The notes: generated from the sequence alone by a model not told the origin. Positions 181 to 15,611 are shown, counted from the first letter of the stretch. The stretch: DNA of 33,510 bases from a bacterium (GCA_030433295.1 JAUIMJ010000011.1:1-33510), one strand, 5' to 3'. A program made the numbers and translations.

Positions 181-1035
181 ATGAATTTCTACAAGTATCA
201 TGCGCTGGGTAATGACTATATCGTGCTACGTGCGGAGGACGGTGCTGATCGCCTGCAGCCGGAGCAGATCGAGCGCATTTGCCACAGGCATTTTGGCGTG
301 GGGTCCGACGGAATTCTGGTGTATTTTCCTAAGGACGAGGACGGCAGCTTTCCCTTTCGCGGCTTCAATCCTGATGGAAGTGAGTTTGAGAAAAGCGGAA
401 ACGGGCTACGGATTTTCTCGCGATTTCTTTACGACCAGGGCTTTGTCAGCGAAGAGCCTTTCAAGATTCGGACAATCGCCGGGCCTGTTGAAAGCACGGT
501 AAGCGATCAGGGACGCAGTGTTTCCATTGAGATGGGCGAAGTCAGTTTCCAGAGTGAGATTATTCCCGTAGCTGGCGAATCCCGGGAAGTAGTGCAGGAA
601 ACCATTCAGGCCAAAGAAAAGAGCTTTGTTTTTACGGCAGCCAACATCGGCAATCCTCACTGTGTGATTCCGACTACGGGGCTTAGTGCTGATATGGCAA
701 AGACCTATGGGCCGGATTTAGAAGTGCATCCCATGTTTCCCAATCGCACTAACGTGCAGTTCATGGAGGTGCTGGATCGAAACGCCATCCGCATCGAGAT
801 TTGGGAGCGAGGCGCCGGGTATACGCTGGCATCCGGAAGCAGTAGTAGTGCTTCAGCTGCGGTGGCGAAGAAGCTCGGTCTTTGTGACAGTGACATCACG
901 GTGCATATGCCGGGGGGGGGTCTGTCTATTCATGTCGATGATTCCTTTGCGGTTCGCATGGCTGGGGATGTTACTCGGGTTGGGGATGGGCAGTTTTATC
1001 CGGAGATGATGGAGTGGACTTTGGGAGGGGGCTAG
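181..1035 (+). CDS. Diaminopimelate epimerase-like protein lacking both catalytic cysteines
   Basis: The 284-residue protein has the DapF fold signature from end to end: N-terminal FYKYHALGNDY (3-13), HFGVGSDG (37-44), a FNPDGSE segment (62-68), NIGNPHC (155-161) and WERGAG (208-213). DapF normally interconverts LL- and meso-diaminopimelate in the lysine/peptidoglycan pathway using two cysteines. Here both positions are serine: EKSGNGLR has Ser72 and TLASGSSSSA has Ser218, where canonical enzymes read CGNG and ACG. The codons are AGC at 394-396 and TCC at 832-834, so this is not a translation artefact. The length is normal. The protein may be a paralogue with a different or lost activity. I therefore withhold the symbol dapF. 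Its stop codon lies two bases before a GTTAGGC core that opens the cassette array. Confidence 0.85.
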   Translation: MNFYKYHALGNDYIVLRAEDGADRLQPEQIERICHRHFGVGSDGILVYFPKDEDGSFPFRGFNPDGSEFEKSGNGLRIFSRFLYDQGFVSEEPFKIRTIAGPVESTVSDQGRSVSIEMGEVSFQSEIIPVAGESREVVQETIQAKEKSFVFTAANIGNPHCVIPTTGLSADMAKTYGPDLEVHPMFPNRTNVQFMEVLDRNAIRIEIWERGAGYTLASGSSSSASAAVAKKLGLCDSDITVHMPGGGLSIHVDDSFAVRMAGDVTRVGDGQFYPEMMEWTLGGG

Positions 1036-1064
1036 CGTTAGGCGTTTTTTGAGAGGCTCGTGGG

Positions 1065-1182
1065 ACGCCGGAGGAGAAAGCATGTCTTTCGCTCTCTGGT
1101 CCTCGCGCTTTCGTCCTTTAGTTTTGCTCAAAGGCCTGTCGGCTGCGGATGTTCGCTACAGACATGCTTTCTCCTCCGGCGT
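1065..1182. repeat. Perfect 23-bp inverted repeat, copy 1
   Basis: The arms 1065-1087 and 1160-1182 are exact reverse complements (arm starts ACGCCGGAGGAGAAAG), with a 72-nt spacer. The right arm is followed by GTTTTGC, so the transcript could fold into a very stable hairpin and perhaps end transcription. It is unlike an attC stem, which normally has mismatches and bulges. Confidence 0.85.
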
Positions 1183-1335
1183 TTTGCTTGTTTGCTGGGG
1201 GTTGTTTCTCCGGGGAACTTTTCTTCTGACTGCATTTACTCCGGTGGGAAATGCAGTTCAGAAGGAGGAACTTAAGTCTGCTCCGGATACCTATGTTTTT
1301 GCTAACATCCTGTATTTGTTTTTGTTAATCTCGAA

Positions 1336-1431
1336 GCTAAGAACTTACACTCGAGTGGAACTGCAGTCGCATTGAGTGTAATCGAGTTTGAACTGAATGG
1401 GTGGCGAGAACTCGTCATCATTATGTTATCT
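1336..1431 (+). other. attC-like site of gene-poor cassette copy 1
   Basis: The right half, TGGCGAGAACTCGTCATCA followed by TTATGTTATCT, is a recurrent sequence in this array (also near 3085, 5389, 6345 and, weaker, 12632). It ends in a good GTTRRRY-type core at 1425-1431. The left half (from about 1336, GCTAAGAAC) is degenerate compared with copy 2. The left boundary is approximate. Confidence 0.55.
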
Positions 1432-1464
1432 CTCTAAAAACAGGCTCGTCATCTATTCGTAACA

Positions 1465-1839
1465 ATGGCCAAACGTGTGTGCTGTAAGTGTAGCAACGGT
1501 GAAAAGTGGAGGGATGCCCCCGGTGCCTCTGCATCGCTGCACTGGGATGATCTTTACAGGCGAGACGATTACCTATTTGTGCCGTTTAAAACATGGTTTG
1601 TGTGTCAGGAGTGTATTGACAGAGATTTAAAGCATAGTCCCATTTTGTGGAAAGTTGGTTGTTTGATCAGAGCTACGGTAAGTTTCCTTTCTTTTCTGGC
1701 GACACTCCTGGTATTTGTCGTTTTTGGAATGTTTATCGGGTTTGAATTTGGACCGAACGGGGCTATTGTAACTTTAGTAGTAATAGCCTGCGGAATCGGC
1801 GTCCTTAGTGCGGCAGTGTCAGCTATCGGTAGAGATTAA
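1465..1839 (+). CDS. Hypothetical membrane protein with N-terminal CxxC pairs
   Basis: This 124-residue protein is of unknown function. The first 55 residues carry CCKC near the N-terminus and CQEC near residue 50, a spacing that suggests a small zinc-binding module. Hydrophobic segments follow at about 65-90 and 95-118, so it is probably an inner-membrane protein with two spans. The ATG at 1465 lies 40 nt after the preceding recombination core, and the stop is about 10 nt before the next attC, which is the usual layout of a one-gene cassette. Confidence 0.6.
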   Translation: MAKRVCCKCSNGEKWRDAPGASASLHWDDLYRRDDYLFVPFKTWFVCQECIDRDLKHSPILWKVGCLIRATVSFLSFLATLLVFVVFGMFIGFEFGPNGAIVTLVVIACGIGVLSAAVSAIGRD

Positions 1840-1849
1840 TCGCAGCGAG

Positions 1850-1946
1850 AGATAACAATTCGCTGCACCGGATTCTCGGCTTGTACTTTTTTGTGGTACC
1901 AGAGACTAAACAGTTTGCCGAAAACCGGTGAGCTTTAACGTTATGT
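1850..1946 (+). other. attC site
   Basis: The site begins at AGATAACAATTCGC and ends TTTAACGTTATGTTT, with core GTTATGT at 1940-1946. Its inner arms GCACCGG (1863-1869 region) and CCGGTGAGC pair imperfectly. The next ATG follows at 1957. This layout matches chromosomal integron attC sites. Confidence 0.8.
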
Positions 1947-1956
1947 TTCTTGAGAT

Positions 1957-2316
1957 ATGTACGAGTTACCGAATGAATCACATTTAAAGGAGTTGATTGG
2001 GCAAGAAGTAACTCTTGTGTCGATCGGCCCATATGACGCTCAAATTGCCTTCGAAAAGGGAGTAGTGATTCAATCTCTACACAAACTAGAGGGTGAGGTA
2101 AATGGAATTAAATCGCTGTGGTTTGATGGTAAGTGGGTAACCACTAAAGATGTTATCCACGTACCCAAGAAAGAGGTAACTGGCATCAGAAATGAGAATG
2201 AACTGGTGCTAAAAATTGCTTTAACTGGTGGTGTAGCTCTCTACATACACACAGAGGTCTCGCAATACGAGAGCATAAATATTACTCGTAGCGATGGCGC
2301 ACTTGAGGTTATATGA
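1957..2316 (+). CDS. Hypothetical cassette protein (possibly DUF6188-like)
   Basis: This 119-residue soluble protein has no signal peptide or membrane span. The N-terminal LKELIGQEVTLVSIGPYDAQ segment recalls small beta-rich proteins of the DUF6188/immunity-protein type, where a 'GpyDaqi.F' pattern recurs; that is recollection and unverified. A W-rich centre (SLWFDGKWV) and C-terminal YESINI complete what can be seen. The start is 11 nt after the preceding attC core, and an attC follows the stop by about 14 nt, so the gene fills one cassette. Confidence 0.6.
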   Translation: MYELPNESHLKELIGQEVTLVSIGPYDAQIAFEKGVVIQSLHKLEGEVNGIKSLWFDGKWVTTKDVIHVPKKEVTGIRNENELVLKIALTGGVALYIHTEVSQYESINITRSDGALEVI

Positions 2317-2329
2317 GCAAGCACCAAAA

Positions 2330-2410
2330 CATAACAAGGCCAGGCACAATCGCCCCTTCGGTGCTGGACCTCCGCACTTCGTGCTCCGGCCTGTGCTGGC
2401 GACGTTACTT
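2330..2410 (+). other. attC site
   Basis: This well-formed 81-bp site runs from CATAACAAGGCCAGGCACA to TGTGCTGGCGACGTTACTT. The outer arms pair (GCC-GGCACA with TGTGC-TGGC) with one extra unpaired base, and the centre GCACTTCGTGC forms a second stem. The core GTTACTT is at 2404-2410. Extrahelical bases of this kind are a hallmark of attC folding on the bottom strand. Confidence 0.88.
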
Positions 2411-2431
2411 TGCTTTCCAATATGAAGGTGC

Positions 2432-2734
2432 ATGAAGAATTTTGTGCTCATAATTTTGGTCGTTGCCCTTGGCTTTTCGGCGTTCGTCATATTCCATCAA
2501 CGAGAGGCTCAACATTTAATGCTTACGAAGATTGAAACTCTTCGCTTGGAAGCTCTGGCGTCAGCGATTAATTCCTATGCTCGTCACAGCTCGAGAAAGG
2601 AGCTGCCGGTCAATCTACAGGTTCTTCTCAAGGACGATGGCCAATATCGGGCAATTGACGACGAACTCCTCGAGAACCCCTGGGGTTGCGCAGTCTTAAA
2701 AAGAGCCGGGCTACTTGAGCCCGGAGGGGGCTAG
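2432..2734 (+). CDS. Pseudopilin-like small membrane-anchored protein, C-terminus overlapping repeat DNA
   Basis: The 100-residue product has a hydrophobic N-terminus (residues 4-22), then a helical region and a DDELLENPWG segment resembling the 'DPWG' stretch of type II secretion pseudopilins. It lacks a clear prepilin cleavage motif with Glu at +5, so this assignment is weak. The last ten or so codons (from AGLLEPGGG) are read through the recurrent GAGCCGGGCTACTTGAGCCC motif and the start of the duplicated cassette. The natural C-terminus may therefore have been replaced by insertion of that element. The start is 22 nt after an attC core. Confidence 0.5.
   Translation: MKNFVLIILVVALGFSAFVIFHQREAQHLMLTKIETLRLEALASAINSYARHSSRKELPVNLQVLLKDDGQYRAIDDELLENPWGCAVLKRAGLLEPGGG
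2698..2724 (+). repeat. GGAGCC-hairpin motif, copy 1
   Basis: The sequence AAAAAGAGCC GGGCTACTTG AGCCCGG contains the stem GGGCT/AGCCC around ACTTG. It lies inside the 3' end of the preceding reading frame and abuts the second copy of the duplicated cassette. Confidence 0.7.
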
Positions 2735-2764
2735 CGTTCGGCGTTTTTTTGAGAGGCTCGTGGG

Positions 2765-2882
2765 ACGCCGGAGGAGAAAGCATGTCTTTCGCTCTCTGGT
2801 CCTCGCGCTTGCTTCTTTTAGTTTTGCTCAAAGGCCTGTCGGCTGCGGATGTTCGCTACAGACATGCTTTCTCCTCCGGCGT
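2765..2882. repeat. Perfect 23-bp inverted repeat, copy 2
   Basis: The arms 2765-2787 and 2860-2882 are exact reverse complements and identical to those of copy 1, with the same 72-nt spacer length. The spacer has several substitutions around 2810-2820 while all 46 arm bases are unchanged. Confidence 0.85.
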
Positions 2883-3012
2883 TTTGCTTGTTTGCTGGGG
2901 GTCGTTTCTTCTGCCTGGATTTACTCCAGTGGGAGATGCCGTTCAGAGGCGGGAGCGTAAGTCTGCTTAGGGCGTCTGTATTTTTTAACGTCCTACATTT
3001 GTTTGTGTTAAG

Positions 3013-3114
3013 CTGTAACGCAGGAGTCCGAGCTCGAGGGGAACTAAGGTTTCATTGATTGTTATCGAGTTCAAATTTGATTGGTGGCGAGAACTCGTCA
3101 TCACTATGTTAACT
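3013..3114 (+). other. attC-like site of gene-poor cassette copy 2
   Basis: The site runs from CTGTAACGCAGGAGTCCGAG to TCACTATGTTAACT, with core GTTAACT at 3108-3114. The outer arms GAGTCCGAGCTCG and CGAGAACTCGTC pair imperfectly. Its left half recurs alone at 4287-4327 and its right half at 5356-5418. Confidence 0.65.
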
Positions 3115-3129
3115 CATTTATATTCGCTC

Positions 3130-3492
3130 ATGAATAAGTTGAAAAAATATTTAATATACATTTGTATTTTTGCAATATTTTTCATTTGGATTGAAAAAAT
3201 GCTTTTAGCACCAACTGGTTCCGATAGCATCAGAGAGGAGTTTCAAGAGGCTTCTTTGTCACCGGACAGGTGGGTAAATCTAATTGGTATAAGTGAGGGG
3301 CGTATATATTTCGAAATAGGGAATCGCGATAGTGTCGTATCTAATTTTGGCTTAGGCTTTTCTAGGGAGGTTCGCTGGGTTCCATTAGAGCCACCCTCTG
3401 GAGAAAATAGAGATTCGAATTTTTACTTCACTAAAAAAGAACTAGAATCTCTAGCTATGGGTAACATACCGTGGGTTAAAGATGAAAAATAG
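3130..3492 (+). CDS. Hypothetical single-span membrane protein
   Basis: From the ATG at 3130 the product has 120 residues. A lysine-rich start (MNKLKKYL) is followed by one hydrophobic segment (about 8-25), then a roughly 95-residue soluble, probably periplasmic domain with no family I recognise. The reading frame is open back to 3055, but that part lies in the attC repeat, so I choose 3130, which is 22 nt after the recombination core. The gene is AT-rich compared with the flanking core genes, which fits foreign origin. Confidence 0.55.
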   Translation: MNKLKKYLIYICIFAIFFIWIEKMLLAPTGSDSIREEFQEASLSPDRWVNLIGISEGRIYFEIGNRDSVVSNFGLGFSREVRWVPLEPPSGENRDSNFYFTKKELESLAMGNIPWVKDEK

Positions 3493-3651
3493 CATCAAGA
3501 AGATAACAATTTTAATCACAGAACGTTCGCTTCGAGAACGCCTGTATCTATAACTGCTATCTCTTATTTACCCTATGGGTTGCTATGAAGAGAGCAACTG
3601 AATCGTACATCAGTTCCAGCGAGCTACTGGTGAGAACAGATCGAAGTACCT

Positions 3652-3682
3652 AAAAAACGAGCCGGGCTACTTGAGCCCCGAG
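3652..3682 (+). repeat. GGAGCC-hairpin motif, copy 2
   Basis: An A-run followed by CGAGCCGGGCTACTTGAGCC and CCGA. The hairpin GGGCT-ACTTG-AGCCC ends 9-12 nt before the TTG start of the next gene. The 3493-3651 stretch ahead of it has a GATAACAA box at 3502-3509 that may be the left end of a decayed attC, and no gene. Confidence 0.65.
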
Positions 3683-3690
3683 AAATTTGA

Positions 3691-4221
3691 TTGTCAGACG
3701 AACAAGAAGAAATAATCGACATCGCCATCTTGGACATGGGCGGCACTATTAACGGCATCCTATCGCCGGAAGATCCTTCGCCGAAAGAAAGTCGTGTCAT
3801 TGAATTTATCACTGAACGACAGTCCGCATATTCGATAAGATGTACATCTGAGATAGTCGTCATGAAGGATTCTCGCGCGGTTCTTGATAATGACCGCGAT
3901 TTACTCGCTGCTGCGATTGGGCGAACCCTCAGCAGTCGCATCCTCGTACCTCACGGGACATTCACGATGCCGGAAACGGGCGAGTACCTCCAACATATTC
4001 TAGCTCCATCGATAGGAGGCAAGTGCATAATTCTCGTGGGCGCAATGACCCCACTCCACGACGACGATTCCGACGCTCCAGATAACCTTGAATTCGCGCT
4101 CGATAAACTTCGAGACGCGCCGCCTGGGATATGGGTGGCGATGAACAAGAGGCTTTGGGACCCGAAAACAGTCATCAAAGACCCAGAAACGGGTGAGTTT
4201 AGGGAGCGAAGTGGGGTATAA
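3691..4221 (+). CDS. Asparaginase-domain protein, N-terminal domain only
   Basis: The 176-residue product matches the N-terminal domain of type I/II L-asparaginases. It has MGGTI with the first threonine (Thr19), PHGTFTMPETGEYL with the second (Thr90), LVGAMTP (116-121), a SDAPDNLEFAL segment, and a TVIKDPETGEF end whose Lys163 aligns with the catalytic lysine. Full asparaginases have about 330 residues. Short stand-alone homologues ending in a similar WVAMN...ETGEF pattern are known as a separate, poorly characterised group. The residue after Thr90 is Phe where classical enzymes have Asp, so asparagine hydrolysis is doubtful. The start is TTG at 3691, just after the hairpin motif. Function in the cell is unproven. 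Confidence 0.7.
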   Translation: MSDEQEEIIDIAILDMGGTINGILSPEDPSPKESRVIEFITERQSAYSIRCTSEIVVMKDSRAVLDNDRDLLAAAIGRTLSSRILVPHGTFTMPETGEYLQHILAPSIGGKCIILVGAMTPLHDDDSDAPDNLEFALDKLRDAPPGIWVAMNKRLWDPKTVIKDPETGEFRERSGV

Positions 4222-4418
4222 CCAATGCGGTGATAAGAGCCAGCAAGCTGGCCTTTCGAAAGGAGCCGGGGTACTTGAGCCCGCGGCGCAGGAGTCCGAG
4301 CTCGAGGGGAACTAAAGTTCCATTGATCTAGCAAAAAGGAGCCAGGCTACTTGAGCCCCGAAGAAGGTCTTTTCCGATGCAGTGGATTTGGCTACGTTTA
4401 ACAGGAGAACGCTGGCGA
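4222..4418 (+). repeat. Gene-free stretch with two GGAGCC-hairpin motifs and half an attC
   Basis: The region holds copy 3 of the motif (4259-4282, AAAGGAGCCGGGGTACTTGA then GCCCG). Next comes the left half of the 3013-type attC (4287-4327, CGCAGGAGTCCGAGCTCGAG onward) and copy 4 of the motif (4333-4361). The right attC half is missing at this place. GGTATAACC at 4214-4222, at the stop of the preceding gene, may be the R'' box of its attC. It looks like a patchwork of rearranged cassette ends. Confidence 0.55.
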
Positions 4419-4474
4419 CATAACAAAAAATGGGCCGGAAGAGCTTGAGCTCGCCACTCATTTATCCGTTATAC
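4419..4474 (+). other. attC site (short)
   Basis: The site begins with CATAACAAAAAATGGGCCGG and ends TTTATCCGTTATACG, with core GTTATAC at 4468-4474, which fits GTTRRRY exactly. The centre AGAGCTTGAGCTC is partly palindromic. The next ATG is 17 nt downstream. Confidence 0.7.
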
Positions 4475-4490
4475 GTGAATAGGATCGAGA

Positions 4491-4829
4491 ATGGAGCTTG
4501 AATCGAAACCACTGGGTTGGTGGATGCGGAATCTACACGAAATGCCTAGTGATATCTGGCTTTGGATTTCAAGCGAAACAGATAAGCTTTCTCCAGAAAC
4601 TGTATGCTTCATTGTAGATAATGGCATTGATCTGAGCGCCGAAGAGCAAGATCAAAGAGAGATTGATTTAGAAAATAGTGGTTTAATGTGCTTCTTCTTC
4701 AAAGATCAACTTGAAGAAATTCAGCTCAACCTAAAGGCACAAAAATCAAACTTTGAATCCAGTGACTTATATGAGGCATTAAATTACTACTGGGAAAACG
4801 ATGCATTCATCGATCTCAACAACGTATAA
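4491..4829 (+). CDS. Hypothetical acidic cassette protein
   Basis: This 112-residue soluble, acidic protein has no signal peptide. A Trp-rich N-terminus (LGWWMRN, DIWLWISS) and the C-terminal segment EALNYYWENDAFID are the main recognisable features. The latter recalls a family of small uncharacterised proteins (possibly DUF7716), which is unverified memory. The stop codon lies inside the R'' box of the following attC, as is common for compact cassettes. Confidence 0.6.
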   Translation: MELESKPLGWWMRNLHEMPSDIWLWISSETDKLSPETVCFIVDNGIDLSAEEQDQREIDLENSGLMCFFFKDQLEEIQLNLKAQKSNFESSDLYEALNYYWENDAFIDLNNV

Positions 4830-4906
4830 CAAGGCCAAGTAGCATCGCGCACTGCGTGCACTGGATCTCGCTACGCTACGCTCGGCCGCTTTTGGCGGCG
4901 TTACAC
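4824..4906 (+). other. attC site
   Basis: An 83-bp site running from GTATAACAAGGCCAA to TTGGCGGCGTTACAC. The outer arms GCCAA and TTGGC pair. Inner segments GTAGCATCGCGCACTGCGTG and CTCGCTACGCTACGC can form further stems. The core GTTACAC is at 4900-4906. The AACAAGGCCA box is shared with the site at 2330-2410. Confidence 0.85.
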
Positions 4907-4916
4907 CGCTTTAGCG

Positions 4917-5333
4917 ATGACCACTAAGACCCCAGAGCAACAGAAAGATACTGACCGATTAAATCGATACATAGCGCGCGAAGGGCTTGTCTCCTTTATG
5001 AGTAACACTAAGTGGAGAAAACTAGTCGACACGATTAGTTCTATCGAAGGGTATCGTCCAAGATTTCGAGTTAAAGTCGTTCGAGACGAATTTCTAGAAG
5101 AAAGTTGGGACTTTAGTTGGCCTTATCATCTACCACCATACAAGAGTATCGAATGGCTTGATCTCGATTGTAACTTGAGAACTCGGCGTGGGAATTTGAT
5201 AGAGGATCATGTAGAAAGCTTCTTTGAAAAGCTGAGCCTATCTTTAAACATGGTCCATATTGAGTTTGAGAAAATAGAGGACGAAAACATCCTCCGCGTT
5301 TATGGATACAAGCGAAGTGGAAAATCGGTCTGA
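4917..5333 (+). CDS. DUF6678-like protein, first of two neighbouring paralogues
   Basis: The 138-residue soluble protein contains FMSNTKWRKL (about 29-38), a WDFSWPYH segment, SIEWLDLD near residue 80 and the C-terminal ILRVYGYKR. The same pattern order occurs in the protein at 5435-5764 (MNDTKWEEL, EWFYHFREGG, TLEWIEIQ, VIRVFGYLP). I recall this pattern from DUF6678, a family of unknown function; the name is not verified. The start is 11 nt after an attC core. Confidence 0.65.
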   Translation: MTTKTPEQQKDTDRLNRYIAREGLVSFMSNTKWRKLVDTISSIEGYRPRFRVKVVRDEFLEESWDFSWPYHLPPYKSIEWLDLDCNLRTRRGNLIEDHVESFFEKLSLSLNMVHIEFEKIEDENILRVYGYKRSGKSV

Positions 5334-5340
5334 CCTCGAG

Positions 5341-5418
5341 AAGAAGCCGGGCTACTCATTGATTGTAATCGAGTTTTAATTTAATAGGTGGCGAGAACTC
5401 GCCATCACTATGTTATCC
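5341..5418 (+). other. Chimeric repeat: truncated GGAGCC motif joined to an attC right half
   Basis: AAGAAGCCGGGCTACT (5341-5356) is the start of the hairpin motif without its second stem arm. It runs directly into CATTGATTGTAATCGAG and the recurrent GGTGGCGAGAACTCGCCATC block, ending in core GTTATCC at 5412-5418. A normal attC left half is absent, so this site may be inactive or a recombination product. Confidence 0.6.
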
Positions 5419-5434
5419 CTCTCAACGCACAAAT

Positions 5435-5764
5435 ATGAATTCGGCTTACGTCTCTTGCATGAATGACACGAAATGGGAGGAGCTTCGACAGGCTATGCTC
5501 GCGCTTGGTGAGATTTCTCCAAAGTGGCGTGCGTGTGATCTCGAAACGAAACACATTAGTAGCTGGGATGGTGAGTGGTTTTACCATTTCAGAGAGGGGG
5601 GATACTCAACCCTTGAGTGGATCGAGATCCAGACAGAGAGTCCTCAGCAGCATGAGGCGGCCTTAGAGGCCATCAAAAAAATCCACGTTCCTGGAAGAGT
5701 TAAGGGAGATGTCATTCGAGTCTTCGGATATTTACCTCCGGGAGAGCAAATCGACTATCTATAG
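5435..5764 (+). CDS. DUF6678-like protein, second of two neighbouring paralogues
   Basis: This 109-residue protein shares the order of motifs with the protein encoded just upstream: CMNDTKWEEL (9-18), EWFYHFREGGYSTLEWIEIQ (47-66) and VIRVFGYLPPGE near the C-terminus. It lacks the roughly 20-residue N-terminal extension. The two sequences are only distantly alike, so this looks like acquisition of two family members rather than recent tandem duplication. It starts 17 nt after the attC core at 5412-5418. Confidence 0.65.
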   Translation: MNSAYVSCMNDTKWEELRQAMLALGEISPKWRACDLETKHISSWDGEWFYHFREGGYSTLEWIEIQTESPQQHEAALEAIKKIHVPGRVKGDVIRVFGYLPPGEQIDYL

Positions 5765-5769
5765 ATGGG

Positions 5770-5874
5770 GGACAACAACTAGGTTGAGCGGACGGGGTGA
5801 TCGACTTATCGTTGTTGCATTATTATTTGCTGAGCGGCTGGGAGTGAGCCCGCCGCTCACCTAAACCGTTATCT
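5770..5874 (+). other. attC site with visible extrahelical bases
   Basis: This is the clearest attC fold in the window. The left arm AGGTTGAGCGGACGGG (from 5781) and right arm CCCGCCGCTCACCT (to 5862) pair along AGGT/GAGCGG/CGGG, leaving a T and an A unpaired on the left side. The site is bounded by GACAACAA (5771) and core GTTATCT (5868-5874). Unpaired bases at such places direct integrase strand choice in known attC sites. Confidence 0.9.
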
Positions 5875-5957
5875 GAATATAGCGCTTAGTTGATCCGGTG
5901 CATACACGATATGTATTCCTTTTGCGTATGATTGTAGCCACACTCCATTAAGGTTCC

Positions 5958-6275
5958 ATGGAAACTCCAGAACTTCAGAGGCGAGCAAGGTATACATTGA
6001 AGAGGGGCCTGATTCTAACTGCATCATCCCTGGTATGCGGAAGTGTCGGGCTGGTAATTTCTTTGGGGACTCGAGACGTGTTACTTAGTGACTACTTCTT
6101 GATTCCTCTTGGGCTTCTCTTAGGTATCTTCTCTTTCTATATGTTCTTTTCATCATACGTTGATTACATTCGACTATGGAGAGCCGAAGGAATTTTTTCA
6201 GCTTACCTAATCTTTTTTTCGATATTTCTTGTTTTGGTAGCAGTTTGGATGCTTTGGTTACTTGCGTACATCTAA
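5958..6275 (+). CDS. Hypothetical inner-membrane protein with three predicted spans
   Basis: The 105-residue product is highly hydrophobic. Likely spans are residues 15-37, 45-67 and 80-103, after a positively charged start (RRARYTLKR). No family is recognised. The ATG is 89 nt after the preceding attC core, longer than usual, leaving room for a cassette-borne promoter; I see no clear -35/-10 pair there. Confidence 0.55.
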   Translation: METPELQRRARYTLKRGLILTASSLVCGSVGLVISLGTRDVLLSDYFLIPLGLLLGIFSFYMFFSSYVDYIRLWRAEGIFSAYLIFFSIFLVLVAVWMLWLLAYI

Positions 6276-6317
6276 GCGCCTTCTGCATTCGTTTTTTCAG
6301 GCCTAGATTATTCCTCA

Positions 6318-6375
6318 GAAAAGGAGCCAGGCTTAATTTGAGAGGTGGCGAGAACTCGTCATCACTATATTTTCT
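6318..6375 (+). other. Truncated GGAGCC motif plus attC right half with degenerate core
   Basis: AAAAGGAGCCAGGCTTAATT (from 6319) is the first half of the motif. It is followed by GAGGTGGCGAGAACTCGTCA and TCACTATATTTTCT. The core position reads ATTTTCT instead of GTTATCT, so the G at the cleavage point is lost and the site is probably dead. The next ATG is at 6392. Confidence 0.6.
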
Positions 6376-6391
6376 CTTTTAACCGAAACTA

Positions 6392-6964
6392 ATGGATAAA
6401 ACCCGAGAACTGACTCGTAGGTTACTGGAAGCCGTCGAAAGTAATGACTTGGAGTTATGCCGAGAGCTTTGTCTTGCGGGGGCTAGCTTGGAGCCCGTGC
6501 TTTTCGCAGAAAACAAAGACGAAGACTTAAATGACTACCCACTCCCTCATGCAGCGGATCTAAATCACTTTGAAATAGTCGCGTACTTTTTGGATTCTGG
6601 AGTAAATCCGAACAAATTTTTCGACCTTTCGGCGCTTCATTACGCCGCGAGCAATGGCAATCTCGAAATGGTTCGACTCTTGCTCAAAAGTGGCGCCGAT
6701 ATTGATCTTGAAGATTGCTCTTGAGACACTCCTATTCTTGGCGCTGCCGCACGAGGTCATCTTGAGGTTGTCCAGTTCCTCGTTGAGGCTGGAGCCAAGG
6801 TGAACTACTGGTCAGAGGGCGATTCTCCCCTTTCAGTTTCTCGCGATCATGCAGAAGTTTATGAATTTCTTTACGCTTTGAGTGATGAAGAGCGCAGAGA
6901 GCATTCGGCTAAAATTCGGAAAGATGAAATTTCCAAGCCGACAAAGCATCAATTCAGGAGATGA
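6392..6964 (+). pseudogene. Ankyrin-repeat protein gene interrupted by one in-frame TGA
   Basis: The frame from ATG 6392 gives 110 residues with ankyrin repeats (FEIVAYFLDSGVNPN, SALHYAASNGNLEMVRLLLK) and meets TGA at 6722-6724. In the same frame translation continues for 80 codons to the TGA at 6962-6964, giving DTPILGAAARGHLEVVQFLV and more, a perfect continuation of the next ankyrin repeat. The full product would have 190 residues and about four repeats plus a charged tail. The TGA sits just before DTP, where repeats often have Trp or Gly; one G-to-A change from TGG would explain it. Two shorter products or read-through are possible but unproven. Ankyrin proteins mediate protein-protein contacts. 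Confidence 0.75.
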
Positions 6965-7505: not shown

Positions 7506-7696
7506 TGCGATGAAGGATAACAAGCAGGGGAACTAAACGTTCCAAGAATGCCTTGAGCTGGAGCCGACGAAACCCCCCGTCGGTCGATCCTGACAAATTT
7601 TTTTGTCGTCGGGTGTTCGGACCTTCCTTCGTTGGGTAATTGTACTTTCATTCATTGCTTTCCTTACGAAATACCTAACGTTACCCCTTAGCATTG
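7506..7696. other. Gene-free stretch with small hairpins and a possible decayed attC
   Basis: GGATAACAAGCAGGGGAAC just after the stop looks like the left end of an attC. The region also has two hairpins: CCGACG/CGTCGG (7564-7583) and GACAAA-TTTT-TTTGTC (7592-7607). A palindromic TAACGTTA lies near 7677-7684. No gene is visible. Confidence 0.4.
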
Positions 7697-7800
7697 GCTA
7701 ACAAAAAGTTGGAGAGGACGTTACGAGCGTAATGTGCTAGGCCTAGTCACTAGTAGCTCGGCAGAGCCAATGGCTGCCTGCTCTCCTAATACGCTTATTC
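7697..7800 (+). other. Degenerate attC site
   Basis: The site starts GCTAACAAAAAGTTGGAGAG and ends TGCTCTCCTAATACGCTTAT TC. The arms GGAGAG and CTCTCC pair. The core reads CTTATTC (7794-7800), with the first base changed from G. The next ATG is 13 nt downstream. Confidence 0.55.
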
Positions 7801-7812
7801 CATTAAGGTAAA

Positions 7813-8817: not shown

Positions 8818-8827
8818 AATACGCGTT

Positions 8828-9271: not shown

Positions 9272-9282
9272 TGTTGAATACT

Positions 9283-9341
9283 GTACAACAAATTATTTAC
9301 GCGAGACGGTATAAGCACCGCTGCGTGGTATTAACGTATAT
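9283..9341 (+). other. attC site (short)
   Basis: A 59-bp site running from GTACAACAAATT to TATTAACGTATATA. The arms ACGCGAGACGGT and ACCGCTGCGTGG pair with one or two unpaired bases around a 6-nt loop (ATAAGC). The core reads GTATATA (9335-9341), missing one T of the consensus. Confidence 0.6.
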
Positions 9342-9344
9342 AGG

Positions 9345-9373
9345 AAAAAGGAGCCGGGCTACTTGAGCCCCGA
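9345..9373 (+). repeat. GGAGCC-hairpin motif, copy placed between RBS and ATG
   Basis: AAAAAGGAGCCGGGCTACTT GAGCCCCGA immediately precedes the ATG at 9375. AAGGAG could be a ribosome binding site, but the linear distance to the ATG is about 21 nt. Folding of GGGCT-ACTTG-AGCCC would shorten the effective distance to a few nucleotides. Confidence 0.7.
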
Positions 9374-9374
9374 C

Positions 9375-9641: not shown

Positions 9642-9712
9642 TTTAGATGGCGACCGGACAAGTAGTAAGACGCTGATTCGGCTGAACTAACTTAAAGCGT
9701 CATGTTTTCCCC

Positions 9713-10033
9713 ATGTGTGTTCAAAAAGAAATTTTGGCTCGCTCCCATTCGGCTGATGAAGTAGTGCTAAGTTACTTTGACGCAATGGAGCTATTGAATT
9801 CGCTGGAAGGAACAAATACAAGGCTGATTTCCTGGGAAGGCCGGATACTCCATAGGAATGGAAACTATGGGCACTCTCAGCGATTTCAAGGTACGTGTGA
9901 CCTTTCAGAGATGCCAATCGGGTCCGCGCTGGCATTGGTGAGAAATACTATCATGCAGTCGAGGGCAGAGTGGGATGAGAATCCGGAGGTTGACGGTGGG
10001 GACTTGTTATTCTGTCTGACACTGGAAGCCTGA
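9713..10033 (+). CDS. Hypothetical cassette protein
   Basis: The protein has 106 residues, is soluble and of unknown function. Mixed strands and helices are expected, with VDGGDLLFCLTLEA at the end. A GTCATGT sequence at 9699-9705, one change from the GTTATGT core, lies 8 nt before the ATG, so an attC may have decayed in 9642-9705. No good stem is visible there. Confidence 0.5.
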   Translation: MCVQKEILARSHSADEVVLSYFDAMELLNSLEGTNTRLISWEGRILHRNGNYGHSQRFQGTCDLSEMPIGSALALVRNTIMQSRAEWDENPEVDGGDLLFCLTLEA

Positions 10034-10115
10034 TCTAAAGAATGCTGATGCCTGAGTTTCGGAGCTGATGAGTTGGCACCGAATTTACAGCATTTAAACC
10101 TGTAGAAAATCTAAG

Positions 10116-10493
10116 ATGGACGAGTCGAGGGGGAACATTCTGGTCGAAGATACAGTCTATAGAGTTCTGACGGAGATGTTCCCCAAACGCAATGATTTTG
10201 CTGAATCCGATTACTCGGAGGAATTGGCGGAGCTCCATCATTTTGGAATTAAGTCAGAGGAGGATTTTCGACAATTACTTGTTAAACATCGGGCTAAGAT
10301 TTTGGAAATCGATGCCAGTCCGATGGATAATTGGCATGAAGAATACTATCAGAGAGAGTATCCGGACCAGCCCGTACGAGAACGAATTGATCAGGGTTTT
10401 TGGTTCGCGTTTCCAGCCTTGCTACGGTTGGCACTTGAGTTGGAATTTGGAGAGCAATACGAAAAATTTGCCAACAAGAGAGACGAGGCATAA
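10116..10493 (+). CDS. Hypothetical acidic cassette protein
   Basis: The protein has 125 residues, is acidic and mostly helical, with WHEEYYQREYPDQPVRERID (about 70-90) and FWFAFPALLRLALELEFGE near the end. No family is recognised. The region before it (10034-10115) has no clear attC apart from a CTGTAGAA sequence near 10098. Confidence 0.55.
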   Translation: MDESRGNILVEDTVYRVLTEMFPKRNDFAESDYSEELAELHHFGIKSEEDFRQLLVKHRAKILEIDASPMDNWHEEYYQREYPDQPVRERIDQGFWFAFPALLRLALELEFGEQYEKFANKRDEA

Positions 10494-10511
10494 CACTAAA
10501 TTAAACCAAAC

Positions 10512-10541
10512 AAAAAAGGAGCCTGGCTACCTGAGCCCCGA
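10512..10541 (+). repeat. GGAGCC-hairpin motif, variant copy
   Basis: AAAAAAGGAGCCTGGCTACC TGAGCCCCGA. Compared with the common form, CGGGCTACTTG reads TGGCTACCTG here; the GGCT/AGCC stem is kept. It lies 27 nt before the GTG start of the next gene. Confidence 0.65.
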
Positions 10542-10568
10542 CCAATGTACTGAAACAGGGAAACTTTT

Positions 10569-11342
10569 GTGACGCTAGTTGAAACTCAAATACAAGCATT
10601 ACTAGATGAGCTCGAACGAGATGAGGAGGTTCGACTTCTTTTCGTGTGTGAGTCGGGTAGCCGTGCGTGGGGCTTCGAGTCGGTGGATAGTGATTTCGAT
10701 GTACGTTTCGTTTACGCTCGTTCCAAAGAGTGGTACCTGACCATCGATGAAGGTCGGGATGTAATTGAGCGCCCCATCGATGACGCTATTGACTTAAGTG
10801 GCTGGGATATTCGAAAAGCCCTGAGGTTACTAAGAAAATCTAATCCGCCTCTTCTGGAGTGGCTTCAGTCTCCCATCATTTATCGTGAGAACACCAGGGT
10901 ATCCAGCTGGCTAAAAGAGGAAATCTCGAAGTCTTACTCTCCCACCTCTTGCATGTACCACTATCTCCATATGGCTCAGGGAAACTTTCGAGAGTATCTG
11001 CGCCGGGATGAAGTGAGATTGAAGAAGTACTTTTACGTGTTACGACCCGTTCTCGCATGTCTCTGGATAGAGCAAGGTCGGGGTCCGGTGCCAATGGAGT
11101 TTGACACATTGCTCAAGGAGCTTGTTCCTGGTGGACCCCTGCTTCGGGAAGTATCGAGTTTACTTGTTCGCAAAAAAGAAGGAGAGGAGCTGGACAGAGG
11201 CCCCGCGATACCTGTGATAAATGAGTTCCTTGAATCAGAGATTGAACGCTTGAGTTCGAATAAAGTGGAGCGTAGCGAGAAGACGGAAAGAACCGCTCAA
11301 CTCAATCAGCTTTTTCGAAATATTCTCGATGAAGTTTGGTGA
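10569..11342 (+). CDS. RlaP-type nucleotidyltransferase (Pol beta superfamily)
   Basis: The 257-residue protein matches the predicted nucleotidyltransferases of the RlaP (RNA ligase-associated Pol beta, PF10127) group. CESGSRAWGFESVDSDFDVR (28-47) contains the GS motif (Gly30-Ser31) and the metal-binding DxD (Asp42, Asp44). A KxxxVLRPVLACLWIE helix (about 158-172), typical of the C-terminal part, follows. These enzymes are thought to add nucleotides to RNA or protein ends in RNA repair, but few have been tested. The start is GTG at 10569. It is the largest intact enzyme-like gene of the array and appears complete. Confidence 0.8.
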   Translation: MTLVETQIQALLDELERDEEVRLLFVCESGSRAWGFESVDSDFDVRFVYARSKEWYLTIDEGRDVIERPIDDAIDLSGWDIRKALRLLRKSNPPLLEWLQSPIIYRENTRVSSWLKEEISKSYSPTSCMYHYLHMAQGNFREYLRRDEVRLKKYFYVLRPVLACLWIEQGRGPVPMEFDTLLKELVPGGPLLREVSSLLVRKKEGEELDRGPAIPVINEFLESEIERLSSNKVERSEKTERTAQLNQLFRNILDEVW

Positions 11343-11425
11343 GGAGTTGTAATACAACGCTGACGGACCCTTCACCTCTGATGATCCAAAGCAGACTGAA
11401 ACCAGTATTTCGGGAGAGATTATCA

Positions 11426-11755
11426 ATGCCAATAGCCAATTGCTTATTGTGTGACCCGTCAATACAAGTTGCCGACGATATCGTTGAAACCTGGTCGAAT
11501 GAGTCTGGTGTCTCTGCTGAACATATGACCGTGAATTGTATCCCAAGAGTTCAGCAATTCGGGAGGTCCTACAAAATCATGGGCACCTTATATCTCCCTA
11601 CGGCATGGGAGGCGGAAGCTGTGGACTCCTTACAAATTGGGCTGAGCCGTTCTTTAGCGAAATGTTGTAAGCTTGAACTATCCGAGATTCATGTCGTTAC
11701 GCTGCGTGTGGCCTCAGGTATGGTTGTGGAGAATGGTTTACTAGAAACCTGGTAA
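11426..11755 (+). CDS. Small conserved protein, possibly tautomerase-like
   Basis: From the ATG at 11426 the product has 109 residues. GGGAGAG (11412-11418) is a good ribosome binding site 7 nt upstream, so I reject the longer frame from 11336, which overlaps the preceding gene. The protein starts Met-Pro (MPIANCLLC), and its length and ABB-like pattern (GVSAEHMTVN, YKIMGTLYLP, LSEIHVVTLRVASGMVVENG) resemble tautomerase/MIF-fold proteins that use an N-terminal proline. This is an inference; the remaining active-site residues cannot be judged. Confidence 0.5.
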   Translation: MPIANCLLCDPSIQVADDIVETWSNESGVSAEHMTVNCIPRVQQFGRSYKIMGTLYLPTAWEAEAVDSLQIGLSRSLAKCCKLELSEIHVVTLRVASGMVVENGLLETW

Positions 11756-11824
11756 GCCTGATGTATTGAAGCCATGGCGAAGGAGTTCGAAATCCCCATA
11801 GTAATGCGCTAACGAAGCTTACAA

Positions 11825-12211
11825 ATGACGGCCAGCATCACAAAAGAAAAAATGCTTCCGCTTCTCGTTGAATCCAGTCCTGGCTTTGCCGGGCAGTGGG
11901 AGGCATTTCAGGCGGATTGGAAAGATGAAGAAGCTCCGCTTTATGTTGTTTTGGGTGATTTCGCTCGCTACCTGATTGATAAGCATGAAAAGGGCGAGAC
12001 ATCAGATTTCGACGCGATATTTAACGTCGTAGAACGCCTGCACATTGATGGCGACGCTTATGTTCAGAACGCGGTGGCTGTCGGACTCCTGGAGGGCATG
12101 CAAAACTCCATGCGGGCTAACGACAGTAACCCGGAGGTGTTTGTTGAGTACCTGCAAGCAGCGACTCGAGAGTCCTGGAACAAGCTGAATACATTTTGGA
12201 ATCCAGTATAG
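11825..12211 (+). CDS. DUF7674-like hypothetical protein
   Basis: The 128-residue acidic helical protein contains EKMLPLLVESSPGF (8-21), LYVVLGDFARYL (38-49) and DGDAYVQNAVAVGLLEGMQN (about 75-94). That arrangement recalls DUF7674, a family of small proteins of unknown role; the name is from memory. GCTAACGAAGCTTACAAATG just before the start may be a relic of a recombination core. Confidence 0.55.
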   Translation: MTASITKEKMLPLLVESSPGFAGQWEAFQADWKDEEAPLYVVLGDFARYLIDKHEKGETSDFDAIFNVVERLHIDGDAYVQNAVAVGLLEGMQNSMRANDSNPEVFVEYLQAATRESWNKLNTFWNPV

Positions 12212-12260
12212 AATAAGTTTACAAGCGTACTTCAGCGGGCGTTTTATGTGAGATGCGACT

Positions 12261-12569
12261 ATGAAAACCTGCAATGTAGAGGAGATTAGAGTTTCTGAAG
12301 ACGGGCGACTCTATGTAAAGCCGGATGGGCTGACGTTCCCGTATATTTATCGTGAGGCGATGGAGGTATCTTGGGACAAGGAATTGAAGTCATTCTACTC
12401 GCCTCACCCAAGAGAGTGGACGTATCTGGAATGGTATAGGCAGATTCATAAAGCAGCCATAGCGCAGAGTTGCCAACTGAAAATTACCTTTGAGACCCTA
12501 TGGGTCAACATTTCAGACGAATTGAAGGAAAGCATATCTGCTGAGTTTGACGAAAAAGGAGCGGAATAA
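12261..12569 (+). CDS. Probable Hfx_Cass5-type integron cassette protein
   Basis: The 102-residue protein reads DGRLYVKPDG, FPYIYREAMEVSWD (about 27-40), FYSPHPREWTYLEWYRQIHK (about 45-65) and ends in a charged helix. This resembles a widespread small protein family one member of which (Hfx_Cass5) was recovered from an environmental integron cassette and crystallised; function is unknown. The match is from memory of the pattern. A GTTTTAT core-like sequence (12241-12247) lies 14 nt before the ATG. Confidence 0.6.
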   Translation: MKTCNVEEIRVSEDGRLYVKPDGLTFPYIYREAMEVSWDKELKSFYSPHPREWTYLEWYRQIHKAAIAQSCQLKITFETLWVNISDELKESISAEFDEKGAE

Positions 12570-12573
12570 AAGG

Positions 12574-12654
12574 AGCGAACAAACGCCCGCTAGCTTAGTC
12601 TGAGGTGAGGTGATACCAGTATTTAACAGGGAACTCGTCATTGCCAGGTTATCC
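12574..12654 (+). other. Degenerate attC site
   Basis: The right half GGGAACTCGTCATTGCCAGG TTATCC is related to the recurrent GAGAACTCGTCATCACTATG TTATCC block, and the core GTTATCC is at 12648-12654. The left boundary at GAACAAAC is tentative. This site argues that the next gene starts at 12664 and not at the upstream GTG. Confidence 0.5.
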
Positions 12655-12663
12655 TTATACGTC

Positions 12664-13077
12664 ATGACCACAAGATTCATTCATATCAATCAAGATTGGA
12701 ATGCGGAGCCTAACGATCCAGAGCCAATGGTCTCGCTTGTCGACGGCGTACTTTTTCTTGAATTCTACGCGAATCCTTGGGCCTACGAGGGGTACGCTGA
12801 AGGCGAGAAGCTTCGGCTAGAGTTCTCCGGGTGCAAACGCTATCGACTTGGTAGAGTCAACGACGAGGGCTGGTATCGTGGGCAGTGTCGTTTTTCGACG
12901 TTGGCTCCCAAGTGGGGTGAGTTTTACGAACTCCAGGGAGACAGGCTCCTTGAAAAATGTCCTTCCGATTGGATAGACGTCGGACCTGCACACGGCCCCA
13001 GACATTTTCTTTTTTACTTTCGTGATGAAGAGTTCGAGTGTGAAGCAGACAGTTTCGAAATGAAGCGAAGGGAATAA
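12664..13077 (+). CDS. Conserved hypothetical protein
   Basis: From the ATG at 12664 the product has 137 residues. The frame opens at GTG 12610, but 12610-12654 lies in an attC-like repeat, so the later start is preferred. A conserved-looking centre, RLGRVNDEGWYRGQCRFS and LAPKWGEFYELQGD, resembles a small uncharacterised family found in proteobacteria (from memory). It is aromatic-rich, probably beta-sheet and soluble. No catalytic motif is recognised. Confidence 0.6.
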   Translation: MTTRFIHINQDWNAEPNDPEPMVSLVDGVLFLEFYANPWAYEGYAEGEKLRLEFSGCKRYRLGRVNDEGWYRGQCRFSTLAPKWGEFYELQGDRLLEKCPSDWIDVGPAHGPRHFLFYFRDEEFECEADSFEMKRRE

Positions 13078-13137
13078 CAAGAATAATGCAGCGGATTTTG
13101 GTGTGAGTCATCGGTATCAACAAGGTTTCTAGCAGAT

Positions 13138-13608
13138 ATGAGCGACCCGAACGTAGCGAAATGGAAGCCAGCAGGAATCACTTCAGTGTGGCGTTATCTC
13201 GATAATGCGAGGAATTTCCCGGGTTGGCATCTGACCGCTGACGCGGAGTCCTGCGCAGCTCTGCAGCAACTATTCGAACAAATGCTACTTGCGAAGTATT
13301 CAGTAAAGACCTCCTTGCTCACCTGCCCGCCGACTCAAGAACTACTCTGCGTTCCCAATAATCAAGGCGGAAAAGCTCGATGGGAGAGCGTTGAGAAACT
13401 TCATTTAAAATTCGACCCCGCAAAACAAGACAATCATTGGATTGTAAATCCTGCGAGCGATGGGCTCCACATCGAAATCGGACGAGGGAAACTAGAGAGT
13501 CTTCGGGACGGGGTCCGGGATATCACCAGAGGGAAGGGCGACTATTCCATAGGTCCTGAAGATGACTCACAGTACGACGAACAATGCCTGTGGTTTTGGT
13601 GGCAATAG
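13138..13608 (+). CDS. Conserved hypothetical protein
   Basis: This 156-residue soluble protein contains FPGWHLTADAESCAAL (27-42), LCVPNNQGGKARW (about 70-82) and ends LWFWWQ. The pattern resembles a small uncharacterised family found next to other immunity-like genes (from memory). The gene is followed after 18 nt by the next one without an attC, so the two may share a cassette. GGAATAACAAGAATAATGCA at 13071-13090 may be the R'' box of a preceding decayed attC. Confidence 0.55.
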   Translation: MSDPNVAKWKPAGITSVWRYLDNARNFPGWHLTADAESCAALQQLFEQMLLAKYSVKTSLLTCPPTQELLCVPNNQGGKARWESVEKLHLKFDPAKQDNHWIVNPASDGLHIEIGRGKLESLRDGVRDITRGKGDYSIGPEDDSQYDEQCLWFWWQ

Positions 13609-13626
13609 AACGGGAAAACAAACAGC

Positions 13627-14193
13627 ATGCACAAACTAGGCGTCTTCCTTGAAAACGACACCGATTTTCACGATGAAGTACCGTTTCGCTACGACAATGT
13701 TTATTCTCGCGAACAAACTACCGGGCCTGAACGTTTGGTCATTGCTCCCCGAGAAGCACACATAGACATCCTTATTGATCTTGCTGCGACCTGGCAGTCA
13801 GACTACTGGCTTCTTTACATCCTTCTGGTGTCACGGTGTGGCAAAGAGCCATCGAGGTATCAATCTCCGGCTGAGCTTGATTTTGAGAAGCTTAAGGAGT
13901 TTTTGACTGAGTTTGGCTCATTTCTTTCTACTGACGGGCGACATCATTTCTGGATAGGCTCAACACAAAATGAAGGAATGCTCATTTACGATCAGCACGA
14001 TGTCATCTACGCATACGGTAACCTTGACGAATACGAGGCCAGGTTAGTTCGGCGAGGGCTTACAATCGGCGAGGTCTCTTTCCCAGCGCCGCATTTGCAC
14101 TGTTACAACCAGGAAAACGACGAGCACGAGATCGGGCTGTTGAATTATTTTGATTGGATGCAATCGCCATTGCAGGATGGAGACGAATATTAA
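13627..14193 (+). CDS. Hypothetical protein, probably co-transcribed with 13138-13608
   Basis: The 188-residue acidic soluble protein has no signal peptide. The segments ERLVIAPREAHIDILIDLAA (about 36-55), HHFWIGSTQNEGMLIYDQHD and DVIYAYGNLDEYEARLVRRG suggest an alpha/beta fold. No family is recognised. The very short gap to the previous gene suggests translation from one message; a two-gene cassette or loss of the intervening attC would both fit. Confidence 0.55.
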   Translation: MHKLGVFLENDTDFHDEVPFRYDNVYSREQTTGPERLVIAPREAHIDILIDLAATWQSDYWLLYILLVSRCGKEPSRYQSPAELDFEKLKEFLTEFGSFLSTDGRHHFWIGSTQNEGMLIYDQHDVIYAYGNLDEYEARLVRRGLTIGEVSFPAPHLHCYNQENDEHEIGLLNYFDWMQSPLQDGDEY

Positions 14194-14278
14194 CCCGCTT
14201 TGCTGTGTTACTTGAAAATTGACTGGTGTGCATAGGCGTCGGGCATCTAGACGATTGGACAACTAGGAAATGTAAACC

Positions 14279-14569
14279 ATGAGAGCTTTTCCCCCTGATG
14301 AATTGGAACGCCGCGTAGATGAGGTGCTGTTCTATGTTTGGGACCCTATTGGAGTAGCGCCTGAACCCGCTGCCCGTTACGAGTATCGCTCCTATGTTAG
14401 AAAGATCCTGGAAATAGTCGAAACAGGTGGGGAGCCCGACAAGATAGTAAAGTATCTCTGTGATATTGAGTCCGGGATGATGTCATTGCCTGCGAGAGAG
14501 AAACAAGCCCAAGAGGCAGCAGAGCTTATTTACTCTCACAAAGAGGCTATAGTTGAAGGATACGCATAA
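14279..14569 (+). CDS. Conserved hypothetical helical protein
   Basis: The 96-residue protein begins with LERRVDEVLFYVWDPIGV, followed by ARYEYRSYVRKILEIV and a helical C-terminus. The pattern resembles small uncharacterised proteins annotated in many proteobacteria (from memory). It is probably cytoplasmic. The intergenic 14194-14278 shows no clear attC apart from GGACAACTAGG at 14257. Confidence 0.6.
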   Translation: MRAFPPDELERRVDEVLFYVWDPIGVAPEPAARYEYRSYVRKILEIVETGGEPDKIVKYLCDIESGMMSLPAREKQAQEAAELIYSHKEAIVEGYA

Positions 14570-14654
14570 GCAATGTGAGCTGCGGCTGGTGTCGCCTTGT
14601 TTTTTTATCGGGGCTATGATCGTTAACAACTAGTTCATTCGCTGCGTATGACTC

Positions 14655-15497
14655 ATGTATTCAAGTCACTATAGAACCATCGATGTTCGCGAAACAATTT
14701 CCGACAGCGGATTTCCAAAGCATACGAAGCCTTATACGCTGGACGATATACGCGAGCGCACGCATCTTGCTATTCGTGTAGCGTCTCAGAAAAGCATACT
14801 TAAGGAAGTTACTCAGCTAAAGTCATTGACTCATTTCTTAGTAGTTAAGGCGAGCAACGAGGATATCGCTAGTATTGCGGCTTGCGACCGACTAAGCCAC
14901 CTTCAACTGTATCAAAGCACGGCAACGGATTTTTCACCTCTTCGACGACTCACGAACCTACAATACTTGACGATGCAGACAAACTCGAAGCTGACTTCTC
15001 TTGAGGATGTTGGAAAGCTCAGGACTTTAAGGGGGCTGAATCTCGAGAACCTAAGCGGGGTTCCTTCTCTTGAGGGGCTTTCGGACTTGTCAGAACTAAA
15101 ATTTCTCGCATTCGAAGGGACCCTTAATAAGAATTTATCTGTGTCAACCTTAGAGCCATTGGAGTCGCTTTCGACGCTTGAGGTTCTCCACATGACTGCT
15201 GTTAGGTTTGAAGAAGCGAGTTTGAGATATTTAAGCGGATTGAGGAACCTTCGAGAACTCTCCCTTGGAGTGTTCTTTCCGGCTGAGGACTTTGCGCGGC
15301 TGGCGGGGACGCTCAGTGAATGTGACTGCAAGTGGTTTGAGCCATTCCACGATAGCCCCATGAAGTGCAAGAAAGGACACAAAAAGCTAATGCTATCCGG
15401 CAAAGGTCTTCGGGATCTTTGCCCGAAGTGTGATGTTGAGAAAATTAAGAAGTTCTCTTCTGAGTTTCAATGTTGGAAGGATGAGGGATTCGGTTAA
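14655..15497 (+). CDS. Leucine-rich repeat protein with C-terminal zinc-ribbon-like motif
   Basis: The 280-residue product has about five leucine-rich repeats between residues 50 and 205, e.g. LSHLQLYQSTATDFSPLRRL, LTNLQYLTMQTNSKLTSLED and LRNLRELSLG, which form a protein-binding solenoid. There is no signal peptide. The end has CKKGH (about 235-239) and CPKC (about 257-260), a C..H/CxxC set able to bind zinc. This combination is not one I recognise. It is the last gene of the array; its TAA overlaps a GGTTAACC box. Confidence 0.7.
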   Translation: MYSSHYRTIDVRETISDSGFPKHTKPYTLDDIRERTHLAIRVASQKSILKEVTQLKSLTHFLVVKASNEDIASIAACDRLSHLQLYQSTATDFSPLRRLTNLQYLTMQTNSKLTSLEDVGKLRTLRGLNLENLSGVPSLEGLSDLSELKFLAFEGTLNKNLSVSTLEPLESLSTLEVLHMTAVRFEEASLRYLSGLRNLRELSLGVFFPAEDFARLAGTLSECDCKWFEPFHDSPMKCKKGHKKLMLSGKGLRDLCPKCDVEKIKKFSSEFQCWKDEGFG

Positions 15498-15559
15498 CCT
15501 ACTCTGGTTGTAGAGAGTAAATTCCTTAAAGAGTCGCGCTTTTTAACTTCACGTTACAT
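15491..15559 (+). other. Possible terminal attC of the array
   Basis: CGGTTAACC at the stop of the last gene and CACGTTACATC (core GTTACAT, 15553-15559) have the spacing of attC ends, with a weak hairpin ACTCT/AGAGT (15500-15518) between them. The convergent trpA gene ends 53 bp further on. No strong terminator is visible between the two converging units. Confidence 0.4.
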
Positions 15560-15611
15560 CGCTTCTACTTTGGAAACGACCTTGCCTGACCAATATCACA
15601 ACCCCGTCGTC

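Follow-up and report, generated by a model that had tools for sequence, protein, structure and literature searches.

The run of short genes between dapF and trpA in this bacterial genome raises the question of whether it is an integron cassette array and, if so, of what kind. The window analysed is the whole of contig C386 (33,510 nt; 33.5 kb), part of a 4.45-Mb draft genome in 425 contigs (a MAG with 86% completeness and 3.9% contamination). An earlier note on this DNA had described a CALIN-like array at 1024-15560 consisting of 26 small genes on one strand, and all 26 are indeed short plus-strand ORFs between dapF and trpA, the latter converging with the array (Table 1). The comparison of gene order that the note proposed came out in its favour. 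In a genome of the same family (L051), dapF and trpBA are likewise convergent, and the 7.3 kb separating them is taken up by ordinary genes, among which none of the 26 window ORFs is present, indicating that the array is, as far as tested, particular to this lineage. GC content is 0.46 in the left part of the array, 0.47 in the right part and 0.52 to 0.53 in the flanks. An Rfam search of the window gave no matches, and no convincing PADLOC matches to defence families were found.

Table 1. Coordinates of the flanking genes, cassettes, recombination sites and repeats (contig C386 unless stated otherwise)
Feature	Position	Strand	Remarks
dapF (diaminopimelate epimerase)	181-1035	+	left flank; TIGR00652, 247 bits
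Hairpin element copy 1, ~180 bp	1024-1204	+	~28-bp near-perfect inverted repeat; directly upstream of W1
attI W1, complete, without intI	1205-1428	+	crossover G/TTA at 1425; 82% identical to C89 attI; nhmmer 234 bits
Cassette ORF, 124 aa	1465-1839	+	without known family
attC A, intact	1850-1946	+	scan 16.5; register as class 1 attC
Cassette ORF, 119 aa	1957-2316	+	without known family
attC B, intact	2329-2410	+	scan 13.0
Cassette ORF	2432-2734	+	end inside D2 repeat and hairpin element; no attC; complete attI next
D2 repeat, 29 nt	2697-2725	+	small hairpin; further copies 3653-3681, 4257-4285, 4333-4361, 9345-9373, 10513-10541
Hairpin element copy 2	2723-2891	+	directly upstream of W2
attI W2, complete, without intI	2892-3111	+	crossover 3108; 75% identical to C89 attI; nhmmer 218 bits
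Cassette ORF	3130-3492	+	ATG 3130; frame open from TTG 3055
Possible attC I, decayed	3501-3562	+	core GCTATCT; by eye and fold; scan below threshold
Asparaginase N-terminal fragment	3691-4221	+	PF00710, 2e-16
Internal attI fragment	4287-4327	+	between two D2 repeats; 95% identical to 3019-3059; nhmmer 22.6 bits
attC D, 57 nt	4418-4474	+	fold; R2 match
Cassette ORF, DUF7716	4491-4829	+	PF24832, 2e-13
attC C, intact	4824-4906	+	scan 11.5
Cassette ORF, DUF6678	4917-5333	+	PF20383, 9e-28; ends in ΔattI
Truncated attI, about -55 to core	5357-5416	+	crossover 5412; 87% identical to C89 attI 167-226
Cassette ORF, DUF6678	5435-5764	+	PF20383, 2e-23
attC E, intact	5770-5874	+	scan 16.0
Cassette ORF, 105 aa	5958-6275	+	without known family; ends in decayed ΔattI
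Truncated attI, core mutated (ATATTT)	6333-6374	+	nhmmer 29 bits
Ankyrin-repeat reading frame	6392-6963	+	Pfam Ank; in-frame TGA at 6722-6724
Possible attC K, decayed	7696-7799	+	core GCTTATT; fold; scan 9.0 with mismatch allowed, within chance
Possible attC J, decayed	9283-9342	+	core GTATATA; by eye and fold; scan below threshold; D2 immediately after
Cassette ORF, Hfx_Cass5 integron cassette protein	12261-12569	+	PF18287, 3e-20
Possible attI remnant, weak	12631-12653	+	repeat family D5, 78%; nhmmer 4.6 bits, E 0.56
trpA	15612-16457	-	right flank, convergent with array
trpB	16438-17700		TIGR00263
attI copy on C113, complete	9897-9674		74% identical to C89 attI

The five GTT cores quoted in the earlier note all close attC-type spacers with AAC-type starts (GTTATGT for site A, GTTACTT for B, GTTATAC for D, GTTACAC for C and GTTATCT for E); a further GTTATCT, at 1425, proved to be the end of an attI copy. 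A generic attC scan, which looks for AAC/GTT ends, R and L stems and one extrahelical base and whose parameters were set after some sites had already been inspected by eye, recovered A, B, C and E on the plus strand, and on the minus strand a single weak match overlapping site D. Unrelated contigs (2.45 Mb strand-bases) gave no match scoring at least 16 and 10 scoring at least 13, a background rate at the latter score of 0.06 per 15 kb; three of the four scanned window sites reach that score. This calibrated scan replaced an earlier stem-loop finder whose matches showed no difference between strands or between regions. The attC arms are common to the window and to two other contigs of the genome, C89 and C113: sites A and E, site F on C89 and site G on C113 align without gaps with plasmid-derived class 1 attC when the arms are kept in register and the variable centre is trimmed. 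On this alignment paired cells make up 91.5%, as against 74.7% in shuffles, 29 cells have changed on both sides (9.6 in shuffles), and sliding the partner by one column lowers pairing to 33-47%.

The several high-scoring sites on one strand that the earlier note anticipated are thus seen with the generic scan; a covariance model built from 12 class 1 attC only detected none of the window sites (best 10.9 bits, E>1) and was set aside as too narrow for them. The best match of a second model (R2), trained on four of our own sites, was site D, which was not in the training set (15.5 bits, E 0.23) and is plausibly a short attC; this model missed long sites, probably through its length limit. A relaxed search for decayed attC returned nothing above chance beyond the intact sites, and sites I, J and K are therefore marked as possible only. 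Stems of the R''/L''...L'/R' type with extrahelical base and GTT core are recognisable only in 1850-5874, where we count four to five attC, all on the plus strand and with class 1 attC architecture and covariation. To count as a CALIN, an array needs two or more attC no further than 4 kb apart and no intI beside them; this segment has at least four attC so spaced, on a 33.5-kb contig without integrase.

The CALIN-like reading does not extend to the right of ~7.8 kb, where a scan of the window gaps detected no attC. The layout that the earlier note had drawn across all 26 genes, with an attC after each, breaks down there. Along the array as a whole, ORF 6392 is interrupted by a stop codon, and ORFs 3691 and 8310 resemble gene fragments, the latter encoding about half an EamA protein. 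The progressive decay to the right that the note had claimed is consistent with the loss of attC and the low GC beyond ~7.8 kb. We infer that the right half consists of older, decayed cassettes of the same array because of this low GC, the Hfx_Cass5 protein, the decayed sites, and a gene at 14279-14569 that is related (31% identity, E 3e-8) to an array gene on C113 (L019, 7932-8285). Both of these genes, which belong to different arrays of this genome, encode small proteins without known function. At 10569-11342, among otherwise small unknown genes, lies one for a complete member of the RlaP family (RNA repair pathway DNA polymerase beta family; PF10127, 311 bits).

Is the left half then an ordinary cluster of attC cassettes? 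As the earlier note had inferred, there is no integrase in the window (profile search of C386), and the check it advised elsewhere in the genome located a single, intact integron integrase gene on C89 (TIGR02249, 442 bits vs a cut-off of 265). The encoded protein has V. cholerae IntI (2a3v, 2e-78) as its best solved relative and is 48% identical to IntI1; its gene lies near a tRNA-Leu and faces a single cassette, bearing attC F, at the end of the contig. The ~225 bp between this intI and the first cassette is the attI region, attI of this lineage being defined by position and core, and it recurs without intI in the window and on C113. The four complete copies (C89, W1, W2 and C113) are alike up to G/TTA, where the slash marks the crossover, and unlike beyond it, with a different cassette after each. 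W1, placed right behind dapF, and W2 both lie beside a first cassette and end in G/TT as in a complete integron, but the sequence upstream of the window copies is dapF or a cassette rather than intI. No intI stub was found beside W1, W2 or the C113 copy, and a scan with a promoter consensus for Pc revealed no enrichment of promoter-like sequences. When 20 relatives were compared, this attI proved specific to the present genome.

Two to three truncated attI forms also lie between window cassettes, and at the ends of ORFs 2432, 4917 and 5958 an attI or ΔattI stands in place of attC. Two of these ORFs, 4917 and 2432, have the properties of ΔattI cassettes, namely no detectable attC (the scan found none in the gap 5334-5434 after ORF 4917) and an attI end with intact core; the true end of ORF 2432 is lost, as it reads into the D2 repeat. 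The neighbouring DUF6678 cassettes at 4917-5333 and 5435-5764, with a truncated attI between them, are distant paralogues (22% identity, E 7e-8). On the minus strand of C113 (L019, 16747-17566), a phosphoribosyltransferase (pyrE-like) gene looks like a central-metabolism cassette because it is flanked by a weak attI remnant and an attC scoring 18.0; a prephenate dehydratase-like ORF (12074-12646) is present in the same stretch. Because an attI copy stands at the head of the window array, more are found inside it, and intI with the same attI is present on C89, we interpret the array as an attI-headed satellite and not a plain attC cluster. The window is likely to contain a satellite array of the chromosomal integron, in which an attI without integrase gene is followed by attC cassettes. 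The earlier note was right about the integron nature of the array but overstated how far it reaches, and it missed the attI at the head and the internal attI copies.

Integron integrases were identified in 14 of 58 related genomes, most of the genomes compared being fragmented MAGs. The attI profile of the present genome had no match at the intI loci of these relatives, and for this reason the region upstream of each genome's own intI was used as query. Of the five further members of the class that were tested, four contain intI-less attI copies. In G026 there are four complete copies (95, 90, 71 and 70% identical) plus two short ones, in G024 three (85, 74 and 71%), in G041 one (72%, obtained with the query from G026) plus two short ones, and in G008 two partial copies (90 and 94%), both within another array that lies 36-38 kb away from intI. 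In G045, no copy besides its own attI was found with its own intI-upstream query. The relatives' copies have the crossover at their end, lack intI and mostly have an ORF start within 40 nt, with attC after several of them. The G008 stretch C60:42000-60000 (L189) comprises a second cassette array with intI on the same contig, two truncated attI and three attC. Over 11 satellite copies, the core-adjacent 40 bp are 88% conserved vs 78% for the rest (Fisher p 3e-7, from counts that are not independent). Two G026 satellites, on C126 and C200, are copies of the integron platform from which intI has been lost, as they keep intI 5' stubs (residues 11-39 at 79% in one and 1-21 at 86% in the other).

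CALINs away from intI are common, occurring for instance in about half of Xanthomonas genomes (PMC12444791), and the window array might have formed by insertion at a secondary (attG-like) site or from rearranged array pieces, its attI likeness being incidental. This is very improbable, since the similarity to the genome's own attI extends over ~220 bp in these copies and stops at the crossover, and since the pattern is repeated in four other genomes. We consider it equally improbable that attI copies and arrays of other strains or organisms were brought together in one MAG by assembly or binning. Fragmentation into 425 contigs, 86% completeness and 3.9% contamination would allow for such an artefact, but W1 and W2 are on one contig yet differ by 23%, and both intI and a satellite are found on a single 295-kb contig in G008 and on C22 in G024.

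The sequence around W1 and W2 suggests a further route by which attI could have multiplied. A hairpin element occurs twice in the genome, upstream of W1 and of W2, and is absent at C89 and C113; copy 1 has a predicted fold of -78 kcal/mol. The last codons of dapF (GGG and the stop) lie inside the repeat beginning at 1024, and the window DapF ends in EWTLGGG, its same-family counterpart in EWQIG. The two hairpin copies are 97.6% identical (1024-1204 vs 2723-2893; 98% over 165 nt) compared to 77% for the attI parts behind them, so simple duplication does not explain the pair, and the higher conservation of the hairpin could reflect gene conversion or a mobile attI module. D2 repeats accompany several attI fragments, either preceding them or fused to them, and in a whole-genome search all six copies were located in C386, on one strand, with one additional two-mismatch match on C185. 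Some D2 copies score as terminators for minus-strand transcription. Spread of attI as an intI-free module (gene-less cassettes or MITE-like, comprising attI, cassette promoter and hairpin) inserted repeatedly between cassettes would account for the hairpin shared by W1 and W2 only, for the near confinement of D2 to this array beside attI fragments, and for the D2 copy directly after decayed attC J, and Vibrio superintegrons are known to contain promoter cassettes without genes (PMC11014356). We nevertheless regard such a module as unlikely, as neither target duplications nor element ends are recognisable, the satellites of other genomes have little in common upstream of attI, and the G026 satellites with intI stubs point to platform copies.

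Under the satellite interpretation, the integron platform would have been duplicated or relocated and intI lost, while attI and cassettes stayed, and the window attI copies may have arisen by the same platform route as the G026 satellites. Cassettes ending in attI (2432, 4917 and 5958) would be of the ΔattI type, formed by recombination or deletion at a duplicated attI. Conserved cores and the different cassettes behind each copy suggest that the remaining IntI may work in trans on the satellites. At least some arrays of this kind are integron platform copies that have lost intI, and they are probably served in trans by the remaining integrase.

The window array resembles a CALIN, a category that outnumbers complete integrons in bacteria (PMC9668308), in its tandem attC on one strand and in having intI elsewhere in the genome and not on the contig, but differs in being headed by an attI copy, in containing more attI inside, and in its right half without detectable attC. 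Cassettes whose attC is replaced by a partial or complete attI (attC-ORF-ΔattI) have been described from integrons of classes 1 and 2, where their function with IntI1 was demonstrated, and are only supposed for sedentary chromosomal integrons (PMC12901181); the present candidates, by contrast, are chromosomal and environmental. An attI also heads an intI-less array in a Shewanella prophage, which has one CALIN with its own attI (PMC9892861). In that prophage, an isolated case, both arrays have the same type of attI, whereas five genomes here contain several diverged copies each. Lineage-typical attC families across arrays, cassettes of mostly unknown function and chromosomal flanks are as in sedentary chromosomal integrons, whereas the combination of several loci with one integrase is not. 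A literature search for attI copies in chromosomal integrons, incomplete in coverage, found only the ΔattI cassettes and the Shewanella CALIN, and within this coverage we saw no description of chromosomes that each have multiple attI copies without intI in the members of a clade.

Integron annotation should extend to copies of attI, as these go unreported when only intI and attC are sought. For the formation of CALINs, attI copies with intI stubs suggest platform duplication followed by loss of intI, and the presence of the genome's own attI in arrays without intI, seen in five genomes of one class, provides a testable origin for orphan arrays. More tentatively, one integrase could in this class regularly use several dispersed attI sites that still work, each building and driving its own array in trans, and the CALINs found there could have been seeded by attI copies and not by chance insertion. 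Should the copies have remained functional, several docking sites and promoters would depend on one integrase, and this would revise the view that only the first positions after a single attI are open to cassette capture and expression.
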